Of a DNA stretch of 64,000 nt, positions 48,009 through 52,649 are shown piece by piece. Each line of letters starts with the position of its first letter. Positions within the stretch are counted from its first letter, which is position 1. Origin of the DNA: Saccharospirillum sp. (GTDB lineage Bacteria; Pseudomonadota; Gammaproteobacteria; Pseudomonadales; Natronospirillaceae); contig JAIUML010000004.1 of assembly GCA_022565595.1 (NCBI GenBank), positions 62,001 through 126,000 of the forward strand. The letters are read 5' to 3'. The position numbers were made by a program, and so were the translations under genes. The notes below the pieces were generated by a model. It searched no databases. It was not told the DNA's origin and was given only the letters and a program-made list of their open reading frames with translations.

Positions 48009-49519
48009 CTCTGCTGCATATGCTCATGCCGTTAATGGTTGTGCTCAGCTCGTTAATACCCGGGCTGATCATTTTTACTCTGCGTGAAGACCAGATTGAA
48101 CTGCGTACCCTGCTCAACTTGAGCGGCGTCTTTATCAAGATGGCACTGGTAATCACCATGCTGATCGGCGTCAGTCAGGGTTACTCTTATGAGTTCCGAT
48201 TGCCGTTCCTGCCCAATGCGGATTTGACACTGCGGGGTGATGCGCTCTCGCTGCAGTTTGTCACTTTGTCGTCCATTTTGTGGATGGCGACCACCATTTA
48301 TGCTATCGGTTACCTCGAAGGCTCACCACTGAGGTCCCGCTTTTTTGGGTACTTCAGTCTCTGCGTTAGCGCCACTGTAGGTCTCGCCCTCGCCGGCAAT
48401 CTGGTGACTTTTCTGTTGTTTTACGAGTTGCTCACTCTGGCAACCTTTCCATTAGTCGTGCATCGGGGCACCAAAGCCGCTTTGCGCGCTGGTCGCATCT
48501 ACCTGGCTTACACTCTGGCTGGCGGAACCCTGGTATTGCTCGGTGTAGTGCTGTTGCACGACATTGCCGGCAGCCCCGAGTTTACCATTGGTGGTTACCT
48601 GACCGTTTTTGAAACCGAGCACAGCGCCTCCCTCACCCTGGCTTTTGCCTTGCTGATTGCTGGGCTGGGGGTCAAGGCGGCACTTTTCCCGGTACACGGT
48701 TGGCTGCCGCGAGCCATGGTTGCACCCGCCCCGGTCAGTGCCTTGTTGCATGCTGTGGCGGTAGTAAAGGCTGGTGCTTTCGGCATTGTTCGCGTGGTGT
48801 ACGATGTCTTTGGCGTGGATCTCGTACAAAACCTCAACCTGATGCCACCCCTGCTCTGGTTGGCAGCTTTCACCATCATCTTTGGATCTGTCATGGCACT
48901 ACGCCAGACCGAACTGAAAAAACGCCTGGCCTACTCTACCGTCAGTCAGGTTTCCTACATCACCCTGGGCGTCGCCTTGCTGGGGCCGATAGCAGCCATA
49001 GGAGCCATTGCGCATCTGGTGCACCAGGGCTTGATGAAGGTCACCCTCTTTTTCTGCGCCGGTAACTTTGCCGAAACACTGCATGTTCATCGCATACAGG
49101 ACATGAACGGCATCGGCAAACGCATGCCTTACACCATGGCCGCCTTTACCGTTGGTGCTCTGGGCATGATGGGCGCGCCTCCCATCGCCGGCTTTATCAC
49201 CAAATGGCACCTTGGCCTCGGGGCTCTGGAAGTGGGCCAGGCCTGGGTTCTATTGGTCCTGGTCGGCTCAGGTCTGCTCAATGCGCTCTACTTCTTGCCG
49301 CTGATTTATCGTGGCTGGTTTGGTTTACCACCCAAAGCCTGGCCCGAGGATACCGGCCTGGGCGGTGGCTCGCCTGGCTGGCGAGAAACGCACTGGATGT
49401 TGCTGCTGCCAACCCTCTTTACGGCCGTTGTATCGATACTGGTGGGTGTTCTGGCGGGGACCAGCATCAGCCCGCTGGCCTGGGCCAAACTGGTGGTTGA
49501 TCTGGAATTCAGCTTATGA
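48005..49519 (+). CDS. MrpD-type antiporter subunit, second of three
   Basis: 504 residues from the ATG at 48005 (ATGA overlap). Closest in look to MrpD/MbhH with LLFYELLTLATFPLVVHRGT, VKAALFPVHGWLPRAMVAPAPVSALLH, KKRLAYSTVSQVSYITLG and HLVHQGLMKVTLFFCAGN. The TM5 glutamate, TM7 lysine and TM8 histidine positions expected of a proton channel are visible. A longer upstream extension lies inside the preceding gene and is not used. Confidence 0.92.
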   Translation: MTLLHMLMPLMVVLSSLIPGLIIFTLREDQIELRTLLNLSGVFIKMALVITMLIGVSQGYSYEFRLPFLPNADLTLRGDALSLQFVTLSSILWMATTIYAIGYLEGSPLRSRFFGYFSLCVSATVGLALAGNLVTFLLFYELLTLATFPLVVHRGTKAALRAGRIYLAYTLAGGTLVLLGVVLLHDIAGSPEFTIGGYLTVFETEHSASLTLAFALLIAGLGVKAALFPVHGWLPRAMVAPAPVSALLHAVAVVKAGAFGIVRVVYDVFGVDLVQNLNLMPPLLWLAAFTIIFGSVMALRQTELKKRLAYSTVSQVSYITLGVALLGPIAAIGAIAHLVHQGLMKVTLFFCAGNFAETLHVHRIQDMNGIGKRMPYTMAAFTVGALGMMGAPPIAGFITKWHLGLGALEVGQAWVLLVLVGSGLLNALYFLPLIYRGWFGLPPKAWPEDTGLGGGSPGWRETHWMLLLPTLFTAVVSILVGVLAGTSISPLAWAKLVVDLEFSL

Positions 49520-51162
49520 ACGCTGCCTTATGGCTTCTGCCTATCGCGACCCCCTTGCTCGGCGCCTTGCTGCTGCTCAAAGGCGGGCGGCGCTGGGCAC
49601 CCTTGCTGTGGCTTGCCCCGCTGCCGGCTCTGGCCATAGCCTGGTTGCCGGTTGACGTTCTGAAGCTCGGCTGGCTCTGGCCGGATGCCCAATGGGGTAT
49701 AACCGATGCACTGGCCACCAACTGGCTGGGGTTTACCGCTCTGCTCTGGCTGGCTGCCAGTCTGTTCGCATGGCAATACCACAAGGACGATGCACACGCC
49801 GCTCGCTTCTGGGGGTTCTGGCTACTGACTCAAGCCGGCAACTTCCTGTTGTTGATTGCCATGGACGCCGTCAGCTTCTATGTCGGCTTTACCCTGATGA
49901 GCCTCAGCGCTTACGGTCTGGTGGTGCACAAGGGCGGCCCGGAACCCATCCAGGCAGGCCGCCTCTATGTGCAACTGGCCATTCTGGGCGAGATGCTGGT
50001 GTACGCTGCTCTGATGCTGAGAATTCACGAATCCGGCGGCTCACTCCTGTTGGCCGATTGGCAACAAAGCTCGACCACGCCCCTGACCATGGTTCTGCTG
50101 TTGGTGGGCTTTGGTCTGAAGGCAGGCTTTTTCCCGTTGCATATCTGGTTACCCCTGGCGCACCCGGCTGCACCACCAGCGGCCAGCGCTGTGCTCTCTG
50201 GTGCCATGATCAAGGCAGGCATTCTCGGGCTATGGCGCTTCCTGCCGGAGCAGGACATGAGCCTGATGGCCTGGTCGCCCTGGTTGATTGGTTTGGGGCT
50301 TTTCAGCGCTTTCTTTGGTGTAGCCATGGGCCTGGTGCAGCGCAAGGTAAAAGTCGCTCTGGCCTATTCCTCCATCAGCCAGATCGGGTATTTGCTGATG
50401 ATTCTTGGCCTGGCACTCGGCGATGAGGCTGGGTTCAGCAGTTGGGCAGGCGTGTTAATCCTTTACGGCGTTCATCACGGCCTGGCCAAGGGTGCACTCT
50501 TTATGGGTGCGGGGGTTATCATGGCAAGGCGTCTTCCCAGATTGGGTTGGGGCCTGATGGCTGTTCCAGCCCTGGCCCTGGCGGGCCTGCCCTATACCTC
50601 TGGAGCCATTGCCAAAACGGCATTAAAAACCGGTGTCTATGACATCAACACTATACTGGTGACGGCGCTGACACTCGGCTCCCTGGCAACCACCCTGCTG
50701 GTGATGCGTATTATTGCCTTGATGCTGGCCACCAATGAAGGCATCACGACAACGCAAAAGGTGCCGTTGCGCTTTTGGCTGGGCTGGGGCCTGCTCTGTT
50801 TGGCACCCTTGCTGCTGCCCTGGCTCTGGCCAGTCTTTATTAATCTACGCCCTGAGGCCTTTCACGCCAGCGCTCTCTGGGATCAGAACTTGCCGATACT
50901 GCTCGGGTTGATCTTTTATGGCCTGACCATGCGTTTTGTTGTTCGGCCGGATCGCTTCCACCCCAGACAACGCCTGGCGCGCTGGCTCTCGCTGACACTC
51001 AAGAACTACTTGCAACCTGCCATACCAGCCAAAGACCGTTCGGGTTCGATGCGTTGGCTAAAAAACTCGCAGACGCGAACCGCTAATGCCCGGTGGGACA
51101 GCGTGACCCTCAGCACCGCCTTGATGGCACTGTTTCTGTTGCTGGCCTGGGTCCTGATCTGA
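49516..51162 (+). CDS. MrpD-type antiporter subunit, third of three
   Basis: 548 residues; ATGA overlap. Proton-channel core: FYVGFTLMSLSAYGLVVH, LKAGFFPLHIWLPLAHPAAPPA, KVKVALAYSSISQIGYLLM and VHHGLAKGALFMGAG. In the TM5 region the usual glutamate (E in FYELL-type motifs) is replaced in FYVGFTLMSL, so this subunit may conduct differently from the two before it. The C-terminal extension after residue ~410 has two further helices and a basic loop. Last gene of the operon. Confidence 0.88.
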   Translation: MNAALWLLPIATPLLGALLLLKGGRRWAPLLWLAPLPALAIAWLPVDVLKLGWLWPDAQWGITDALATNWLGFTALLWLAASLFAWQYHKDDAHAARFWGFWLLTQAGNFLLLIAMDAVSFYVGFTLMSLSAYGLVVHKGGPEPIQAGRLYVQLAILGEMLVYAALMLRIHESGGSLLLADWQQSSTTPLTMVLLLVGFGLKAGFFPLHIWLPLAHPAAPPAASAVLSGAMIKAGILGLWRFLPEQDMSLMAWSPWLIGLGLFSAFFGVAMGLVQRKVKVALAYSSISQIGYLLMILGLALGDEAGFSSWAGVLILYGVHHGLAKGALFMGAGVIMARRLPRLGWGLMAVPALALAGLPYTSGAIAKTALKTGVYDINTILVTALTLGSLATTLLVMRIIALMLATNEGITTTQKVPLRFWLGWGLLCLAPLLLPWLWPVFINLRPEAFHASALWDQNLPILLGLIFYGLTMRFVVRPDRFHPRQRLARWLSLTLKNYLQPAIPAKDRSGSMRWLKNSQTRTANARWDSVTLSTALMALFLLLAWVLI

Positions 51163-51177
51163 TCACGCCTTGATCAG
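51159..51177. promoter_or_regulatory. Inverted repeat upstream of the CsrB-like RNA
   Basis: CTGATCA-CGCCT-TGATCAG, perfect 7-bp arms, begins at the last codons of the antiporter operon and lies about 31 bp before the RNA's -35 box. It may be a regulator site for the RNA. It does not match the TGTAAG-N6-CTTACA consensus of GacA/UvrY. Confidence 0.4.
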
Positions 51178-51207
51178 CCGCCCGAAAAAGTCGCGTATAT
51201 GGCTCCC

Positions 51208-51237
51208 TTGGGTAGCACCAGACTGTACTTTTAATAT
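51208..51237 (+). promoter_or_regulatory. Candidate promoter of the CsrB-like RNA
   Basis: TTGGGT (51208-51213) and TAATAT (51232-51237) are 18 bp apart, giving a transcript start near 51243-51245. The -35 is only partly consensus, as expected for an activator-dependent promoter. Confidence 0.5.
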
Positions 51238-51242
51238 TGTTG

Positions 51243-51545
51243 TTTTACTGCTGACTCGGCACTGGTACCTTGTTGCTTGTCGAAGGGAGGAGGACAGGGA
51301 AAAGGGATAGAGCAGCAAGGAATAAAGAGCTGAAGGCTGGGAGCGCCACAGAAGGAATGGCCGGGAATGGCCAAATAAAGGAACGACAGGCTCAGGCCGG
51401 GATGGCAAAAAGAGCGCGCAGGGAATGCATTTTCAAAGGATGCACAGGGTGCAACAAGGAAACGCCCCACGGATGGTAGCCAGATCGCAAAGGACGTCGC
51501 CAGATGACAAAACCGGAGAGCCGAGTTGTGCTCCGGTTTTTGTTA
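51243..51545 (+). ncRNA. CsrB/RsmZ-type sRNA (predicted CsrA/RsmA sponge)
   Basis: About 300 nt, with no credible ORF, strongly purine-biased. Between 51286 and 51517 there are 17 GGA triplets (positions include 51286, 51289, 51292, 51298, 51305, 51319, 51340, 51354, 51364, 51380, 51400, 51422, 51438, 51458, 51471, 51492, 51515); about four would be expected by chance. Several sit in loops of short hairpins: TGGCC-GGGAAT-GGCCA (51359-51372), GCC-GGGAT-GGC (about 51396-51405), TGCAT...AGGATGCA (51426-51443) and CCA-CGGA-TGG (51468-51476). It ends in a strong terminator. This is the known design of CsrB, CsrC and RsmX/Y/Z RNAs, which bind many CsrA dimers. Exact ends are uncertain. Confidence 0.82.
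51509..51541 (+). terminator. Intrinsic terminator of the CsrB-like RNA
   Basis: A perfect 10-bp stem AAAACCGGAG (51509-51518)/CTCCGGTTTT (51531-51540) with a 12-nt loop, ending in five T residues. It lies 347 bp after the antiporter stop, consistent with a separate RNA unit. The following 51546-51662 holds nothing that I recognise. Confidence 0.9.
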
Positions 51546-51662
51546 TAGGCGTCATTAACAGTCACCGACGTTTCAGCGCTTACCCATTTTCTGTATCGCT
51601 TTCATGATCGTCATACCTTTCCTATACTGTTTCTCTCATGCAAACCTATAGGGAATTCCTCC

Positions 51663-52649
51663 GTGACCCACACAAGCCTCCATGAACACCTGATCTCATC
51701 AACAATAATGCGCTACAAGTCAGTCGTGTCCCGGGCTCAAACGGCAAAACCTTTGGCATCGATGCTACTCAAGATTGCCACGGCTTTGACGATCTCTACT
51801 GCAGCCCTCGCCGACAATGTTGTCGTTTCCTCGAAAATCGATACCGAAGGCTCCGTTCTGGGCAATATTATTTATCTCGCGCTTCAGGATGCAGGCATCC
51901 CGGTAGAGGATCGCATTCAACTGGGCGCAACCAATATCGTTCGGGATGCCATCATCGCCGGTGAAATCGATATATATCCCGAATACACTGGCAATGGCGC
52001 CTTTTTCTTTGACCGGACCGATGCCCCAGACTGGAAGAACCCGGATGCAGCATATGAACTGGTTCGCCAACTGGATTTCGATGCCAATCAACTGGTCTGG
52101 CTACAGCCTGCCAATGCCAACAACACCTGGGCAATCAGCGTCCGCCAGGACCTTGCAAGTGCCCATGGCCTGGATACGCTGGAAGACCTGGCGGCCTACT
52201 TGAACGATGGAGGTGAGTTCCGTTTTGCTGGCAGCGCCGAATTTGTGGAATCCGAAAGTGCCCTGCCCGCTTTTCAAGCAGCTTATGGATTTGAGCTCAG
52301 ATCAGATCAGTTGGTCGTCCTGGCCGGTGGCAATACGGCCGCTACGATGAGAGCGGCAGCGCAGCAAATCAATGGTGTCAACGCGGCAATGACCTACGGT
52401 ACCGACGGCGGTCTTAACGCTCTGAATCTGCGTGTCATGAAGGACACGCTCGGCGTACAGCCGGTATACGAACCCGCTCCGATTATTCGAGCCGATACCC
52501 TGGCGCAGTACCCTGAAATCGAGTCCATTCTGGCACCCTTGTTCAATGCCATGACGCTAGAGGGATTGCAGGAAATGAACGGCAATGTCGCTGTTAACGG
52601 GGCCGACCCACGCCAGGTTGCACGTGACTTTATTGACCAGAACCGCTAA
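51663..52649 (+). CDS. Osmoprotectant ABC transporter substrate-binding protein (OsmF/YehZ type)
   Basis: 328 residues from the GTG at 51663 with AGGGA 9 bp upstream; an ATG at 51708 gives a more usual signal peptide (MRYKSVVSRAQ ... ALTISTAALA). The mature domain has VVVSSKIDTEGSVLGNIIYLALQDAGI, EIDIYPEYTGNGAFFF and MTYGTDGGLNALNLRVMKD, the OpuAC/quaternary-amine-binding pattern. It binds glycine betaine or a related solute in the periplasm. First gene of an operon with two permeases and an ATPase. Confidence 0.9.
   Translation: MTHTSLHEHLISSTIMRYKSVVSRAQTAKPLASMLLKIATALTISTAALADNVVVSSKIDTEGSVLGNIIYLALQDAGIPVEDRIQLGATNIVRDAIIAGEIDIYPEYTGNGAFFFDRTDAPDWKNPDAAYELVRQLDFDANQLVWLQPANANNTWAISVRQDLASAHGLDTLEDLAAYLNDGGEFRFAGSAEFVESESALPAFQAAYGFELRSDQLVVLAGGNTAATMRAAAQQINGVNAAMTYGTDGGLNALNLRVMKDTLGVQPVYEPAPIIRADTLAQYPEIESILAPLFNAMTLEGLQEMNGNVAVNGADPRQVARDFIDQNR

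Follow-up and report, generated by a model that had tools for sequence, protein, structure and literature searches.

A candidate CsrA-sponge RNA gene of the CsrB/RsmZ kind in a Saccharospirillum genome

The locus and its neighbouring genes

A GGA-rich region, which a preliminary description had presented as a sponge RNA of the CsrB/RsmZ type, occupies an intergenic position in the window (the whole 64,000-nt stretch of DNA that was analysed), between two salt-stress gene clusters, one containing an antiporter gene and the other being the osmF operon (Table 1). The genome (4.77 Mb, 66 contigs, 99.94% complete) is a draft assembly. From the antiporter stop to the first GGA there are 123 bases.

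Table 1. Features of the candidate sRNA locus and its flanks (positions in the window)
Feature	Position	Strand	Remarks
Upstream gene	49516..51162	+	Proton-conducting antiporter-like membrane subunit (Proton_antipo_M)
Upstream intergenic stretch	51163..51285	+	Where an own promoter would sit; no sigma-70 consensus, no GacA box found
Candidate CsrA-sponge sRNA gene	51208..51545	+	GGA cluster and terminator, intergenic; bounds from the preliminary description, provisional at the 5' end
GGA-rich core	51286..51517	+	17 GGA, roughly half of them as ARGGA; CsrA is predicted to bind here
Hairpin with GGA in loop	51358..51373	+	TGGCCG-GGAA-TGGCCA; clearest case; GG unpaired in all sampled folds
Terminator hairpin, T run ending 3' arm	51509..51540	+	Fold -15.4 kcal/mol; 3' arm ends in GGTTTTTGTT
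Downstream gene	51663..52649	+	OsmF-type glycine betaine binding protein, then ABC permease genes

The region had been said to contain no ORF of merit. Four ORFs overlap it, and none of them has a Pfam match at E 1, which adds to the support for a sponge RNA; the statement needs qualification in that a 69-aa ORF with a TTG start spans 51270-51479. Although this frame is open, a small protein gene at this place is extremely improbable in view of the TTG start, the lack of a Pfam match at E 1 and the lack of a DNA relative in the genus.

Motif density, folding and expression signals

The GGA-rich core is the densest place for GGA on both strands of the window, the next-best separate places holding 11 triplets on the plus and 9 on the minus strand, and the earlier count of 17 GGA within approximately 235 nt was reproduced as 17 in 232 nt. 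With 35% G and 36% A, the core would have some 10 GGA by composition alone. Shuffled versions contained 10.3 on average; among 2000 dinucleotide shuffles 1 attained the observed number, and among 2000 mononucleotide shuffles 10 did. The excess of A(A/G)GGA was more pronounced, with nine occurrences versus a mean of 2.6, a value that none of the 2000 shuffles reached with either method. A search of the whole genome for three ARGGA with short gaps gave 29 matches, and the reversed control gave 27, which means that a match on its own can be put down to chance. The window locus accounts for six of the 29, G000:C42:27041-27133 (contig C42 of the same genome) for three and any other place for two at most. 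As in the Csr/Rsm class, GGA/ARGGA sites are numerous over the short length of the predicted non-coding RNA.

Sampled folds place 5 of the 17 GGA in hairpin loops with a probability above 0.3 (two of them in one loop), and the remaining 12 are not mainly in loops. When the GGAs were fixed and the rest of the sequence was shuffled, a mean of 2.5 was displayed in loops, and the mean loop display of the window RNA was equalled by 1 of 100 such controls. The display of GGA in hairpin loops or single strands, another feature of the class, is therefore present above control, in agreement with the earlier observation of several GGA in loops of small hairpins. As a whole, the fold is not unusually stable for its composition (z -0.57), 52 of 200 shuffles doing equally well.

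The strong terminator that had been described was confirmed by folding (Table 1), and its T run gives the locus the intrinsic terminator at the 3' end that is found in this class. A terminator scan did not list the 51509-51540 hairpin on the plus strand, which we think is due to an outer loop over the scan's loop limit of 8; a terminator-like site was also listed on the minus strand. This hairpin bears on two other explanations of the GGA cluster. A functionless purine-rich spacer would be compatible with the approximately 10 GGA attributable to composition, with the ordinary overall fold and with the lack of a match in congeners, but it is improbable considering the ARGGA excess that 0 of 2000 shuffles attained, the loop display and the terminator. 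Since the GGA region is located upstream of osmF on the same strand, it could also be the leader of the osmF operon, bound by CsrA and controlling betaine uptake in cis; such a leader is quite improbable, given that the terminator intervenes before osmF and that 17 sites would exceed the need of a cis target.

Both protein partners of a Csr/Rsm circuit are encoded in the genome. A single copy of csrA exceeds the curated cut-off, CsrA being present in all of the 28 genomes searched (own genome included), and a GacA/UvrY equivalog (298.9 bits, cut-off 280) is located directly upstream of uvrC. The presence of CsrA and of a GacA/UvrY regulator in the same genome agrees with what is typical of the class.

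The promoter-like element of the preliminary description was not recovered, as a sigma-70 consensus scan of 50700-52000 yielded 0 sites. Near the window RNA no GacA box was detected within 3 mismatches of the motif, and the best upstream site had 4; a GacA box upstream, which is usual but not defining for the class, is thus missing at this locus. The sponge RNA might instead have no promoter of its own and arise by processing of the antiporter mRNA at its 3' tail, an explanation that overlaps with the preferred one of a CsrA-sequestering RNA gene. The lack of a promoter consensus in the intergenic stretch speaks for such processing, but activator-dependent promoters often miss the consensus and the 123 bases ahead of the first GGA leave room for a promoter; on balance, we consider this origin unlikely, albeit a serious alternative.

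Comparison with known RNA families and related genomes

Over the whole window, only an SRP RNA and a tRNA exceeded the Rfam cut-offs. At E 10, the candidate stretch produced one related match, to RsmY (RF00195), with 13.7 bits versus a gathering cut-off of 57, and the CsrB model (RF00018) had no match at the window locus even at this threshold, its two weak matches in the genome both lying on other contigs. By gathering cut-off, the RNA is thus assigned to neither RF00018 nor RF00195. This was the covariance-model check (CsrB and Rsm families) that had been suggested, and the accompanying forecast that sequence searches may miss the RNA proved right. Rfam searches of 14 further loci, nine of which have GGA-rich stretches, returned tRNA matches only. 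Our literature search found no papers on Saccharospirillum with CsrA or with small RNA.

The window RNA has many GGA sites, an intergenic location and a terminator in common with CsrB (RF00018) and CsrC of Escherichia coli, although the CsrB model does not match it; one report gives 22 and 14 GGA sites for CsrB and CsrC, respectively (PMC11882849). GGA hairpins are shared with RsmX, RsmY and RsmZ of Pseudomonas, but in length the window RNA exceeds the 121 positions of the RsmY model. The closest parallel in the way of detection is provided by Pf1, Pf2 and Pf3 of Pseudoalteromonas fuliginea, which were likewise found via GGA count, promoter and terminator and for which the same source lists 25, 21 and 9 GGA, with several such RNAs per genome (PMC11882849); these three were verified at the bench, whereas the window RNA is a prediction. 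An fdxA-rsmZ arrangement is described for Pseudomonas in another report (PMC9788540). It was rejected for this genus, as it is absent from all six genomes (0, 5, 1, 1, 1 and 4 GGA in the 300 nt behind fdxA). The kind of RNA is already known from CsrB and RsmZ, and the window RNA itself is most likely a new member that is missed by Rfam.

The genus set comprised six genomes, namely the window's own genome and five congeners. At E 0.001 the window RNA found only itself, with no DNA relative in any of the five congeners, and therefore conservation of the window RNA itself cannot be shown. No match was found in plasmids, and among the matches listed at E 10 in 28 genomes there were only the RNA itself and short ones at chance level. 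A search of the five congeners with the flanking genes (antiporter and osmF) gave no match at E 1e-60 for either. In G016, a genome of a different genus, only a few kb separate the antiporter from the osmF operon, and neither of the two loci taken from there exceeds 7 GGA per 240 nt on the plus or the minus strand. Weak similarity was noted between the window RNA and eight GGA-rich stretches, the scores being reached by 2 to 174 of 200 shuffles (2 for G015, 5 for G001, 6 for G006, 13 for G005, 17 for a second stretch of G001, 27 for G003, 47 for C42 and 174 for G014). A common terminator, ACCGGA..TCCGGTTTT, was considered as a proof of orthology and rejected, since it has seven matches in four of the six genomes and three other places that were fetched carry no GGA cluster.

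Some further stretches were noticed in the congeners. The second Csr-like stretch of G001 (C35; L155 3830-4330) holds 13 GGA in 232 nt and lies among genes that look pho-like. Upstream of this RNA is a TGTAAG-N6-CTTACA-like site with 2 mismatches of 12, which may be due to chance because several spacers and eleven stretches were tried. G002 has a small stretch with 4 GGA (L162 4260-4350) next to a gene presumed to be dinB, and a similar one is present in G004 (L163).

GGA-rich stretches behind comEA and the proposed role of the RNA

Three congeners have large GGA-rich stretches directly behind comEA (L154 4130-4600, L156 4255-4720 and, in - strand coordinates, L176 1810-2400). They begin 12-16 bases after the comEA stop, the 300 nt that follow this stop include 17 (G001), 20 (G005) and 25 (G003) GGA, and Rfam recognises none of the three. 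In G002 and G004 such a cluster is missing behind comEA. Between the stretches of G001 and G005, 292 of 444 alignment columns are identical; with G001 as reference 16 of 23 GGA are kept versus 147 of 440 other triplets, and with G005 as reference the numbers are 16 of 29 and 145 of 434. AGG (19/30) and CAG (16/25), both of which overlap the CAGGGA motif, are kept about equally well as GGA. By eye, two GGA hairpins of this alignment each keep one pair through a two-sided change, and the outer pair is broken in one of the two. We take this pattern as a sign that the sponge design is under selection in the genus; it does not extend to the window RNA itself, which resembles the comEA-linked stretches weakly. 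The window RNA also has no comEA adjoining and is thus not one of these stretches.

At E 1e-5, comEA was found in 27 of 28 genomes, the sole miss being the window's own genome, where the comEA family search gave only 37.3 bits (cut-off 53.1), in a 788-aa frame. On contig C42 of this genome (L157 4400-4690), a short frame ending GIGPATL...stop is followed about 14 bases on by 10 GGA in 187 nt, with a hairpin lacking a T run behind the cluster and the contig end approximately 320 bases further on; read by eye, this looks like a comEA 3' remnant plus its RNA. The earlier designation of the window RNA as the host's global switch RNA overreaches in view of this second cluster, and at least one further RNA of this type probably exists in the genome. 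Flagellar, c-di-GMP and stress genes had been put forward as possible targets. Elsewhere in the same genome, a GGA-rich stretch around a gene start (L165 3200-3430, contig C26) might be a CsrA target leader; the gene resembles gshB.

The comEA survey was extended to 124 stretches, 27 from the relatives and 97 from 96 class genomes over the cut-off (132 searched). In the 120 full stretches of 300 nt behind comEA, the mean number of GGA was 4.56 versus 4.15 for TCC. In 200 nt, for which 121 of the 124 stretches were long enough, at least four ANGGA occurred in 9 (6/27 relatives, 3/94 class) and at least four TCCNT in none, the threshold of four having been chosen after looking. Over this length, comparing GGA with TCC gave p 0.60, and comparing ANGGA with TCCNT gave p 0.009 overall and 0.054 and 0.066 for the two parts. 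G015, G006 and G008 are the members elsewhere in the family with at least four ANGGA in this interval. On this survey, a class-wide comEA sponge was rejected as not general. Csr-like GGA hairpins were seen by eye behind comEA in L190 (another genus of the same family) and L254 (another family of the same class).

A parallel to the stretches of the congeners is RsmU of Xanthomonas campestris, which reportedly binds RsmA, originates from the comEA 3' UTR by processing and has four or three GGA depending on the isoform; mutating all four predicted GGA abolished neither RsmA binding nor the effects of RsmU (PMC7694677). The window RNA differs from RsmU in not being beside comEA. A further report tabulates PP_1813, a comEA-like transcript, among the RNAs bound by Rsm proteins in Pseudomonas putida (PMC7937890). 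Processing of RsmU from a 3' UTR (PMC7694677) and the position of the three congeneric stretches 12-16 bases after a stop codon also favour an origin of the window RNA by cleavage of the antiporter mRNA.

The best explanation of the locus, to which we give a probability of roughly 0.84, is that it would be the gene for a CsrA-sequestering RNA of the CsrB/RsmZ kind, with its own promoter or cut from the antiporter message. The analysis shows the motif excess, the loop display, the terminator and the presence of csrA and gacA; similarly designed stretches of congeners, in which GGA are kept, lend the explanation further weight, and we infer the transcription, CsrA binding, GacA control and targets of the RNA. 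The sponge type proposed earlier is thereby upheld in the number of GGA/ARGGA sites, the loop display, the terminator, the single CsrA and the GacA/UvrY regulator, but not in the promoter or in being "the" switch RNA. The RNA would be non-coding, approximately 260-340 nt long and terminated around 51540-51545. Through numerous ARGGA sites, some of them in hairpin loops, it would bind several CsrA dimers and draw CsrA off mRNA leaders in the manner of CsrB and RsmZ. An own promoter, perhaps GacA-dependent, is judged likelier than cutting from the antiporter message.

Within this genus, the location of Csr-like RNAs appears to shift rapidly; Csr-like stretches repeatedly lie behind comEA, a pattern that apparently breaks down in the window species. 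A joint history, which we offer tentatively and regard as rather doubtful as a whole, would be that the family's sponge arose as the comEA 3' tail, tying competence transcription to CsrA (cf. RsmU), and that the window species lost comEA, reduced the orphan sponge on C42 and moved the main function to a free-standing gene beside osmoadaptation genes. If this were true, CsrA sponges would be fast-moving genes, and the host message would decide which signal feeds the CsrA switch. The Rfam models that were run recognised no sponge in the genus, and with this locus its Csr circuit gains a probable one. Our comparison suggests that csrA is retained while sponge RNAs differ in place and sequence from one species to the next, and the repeated GGA-rich stretches behind comEA suggest a link between natural competence and CsrA.
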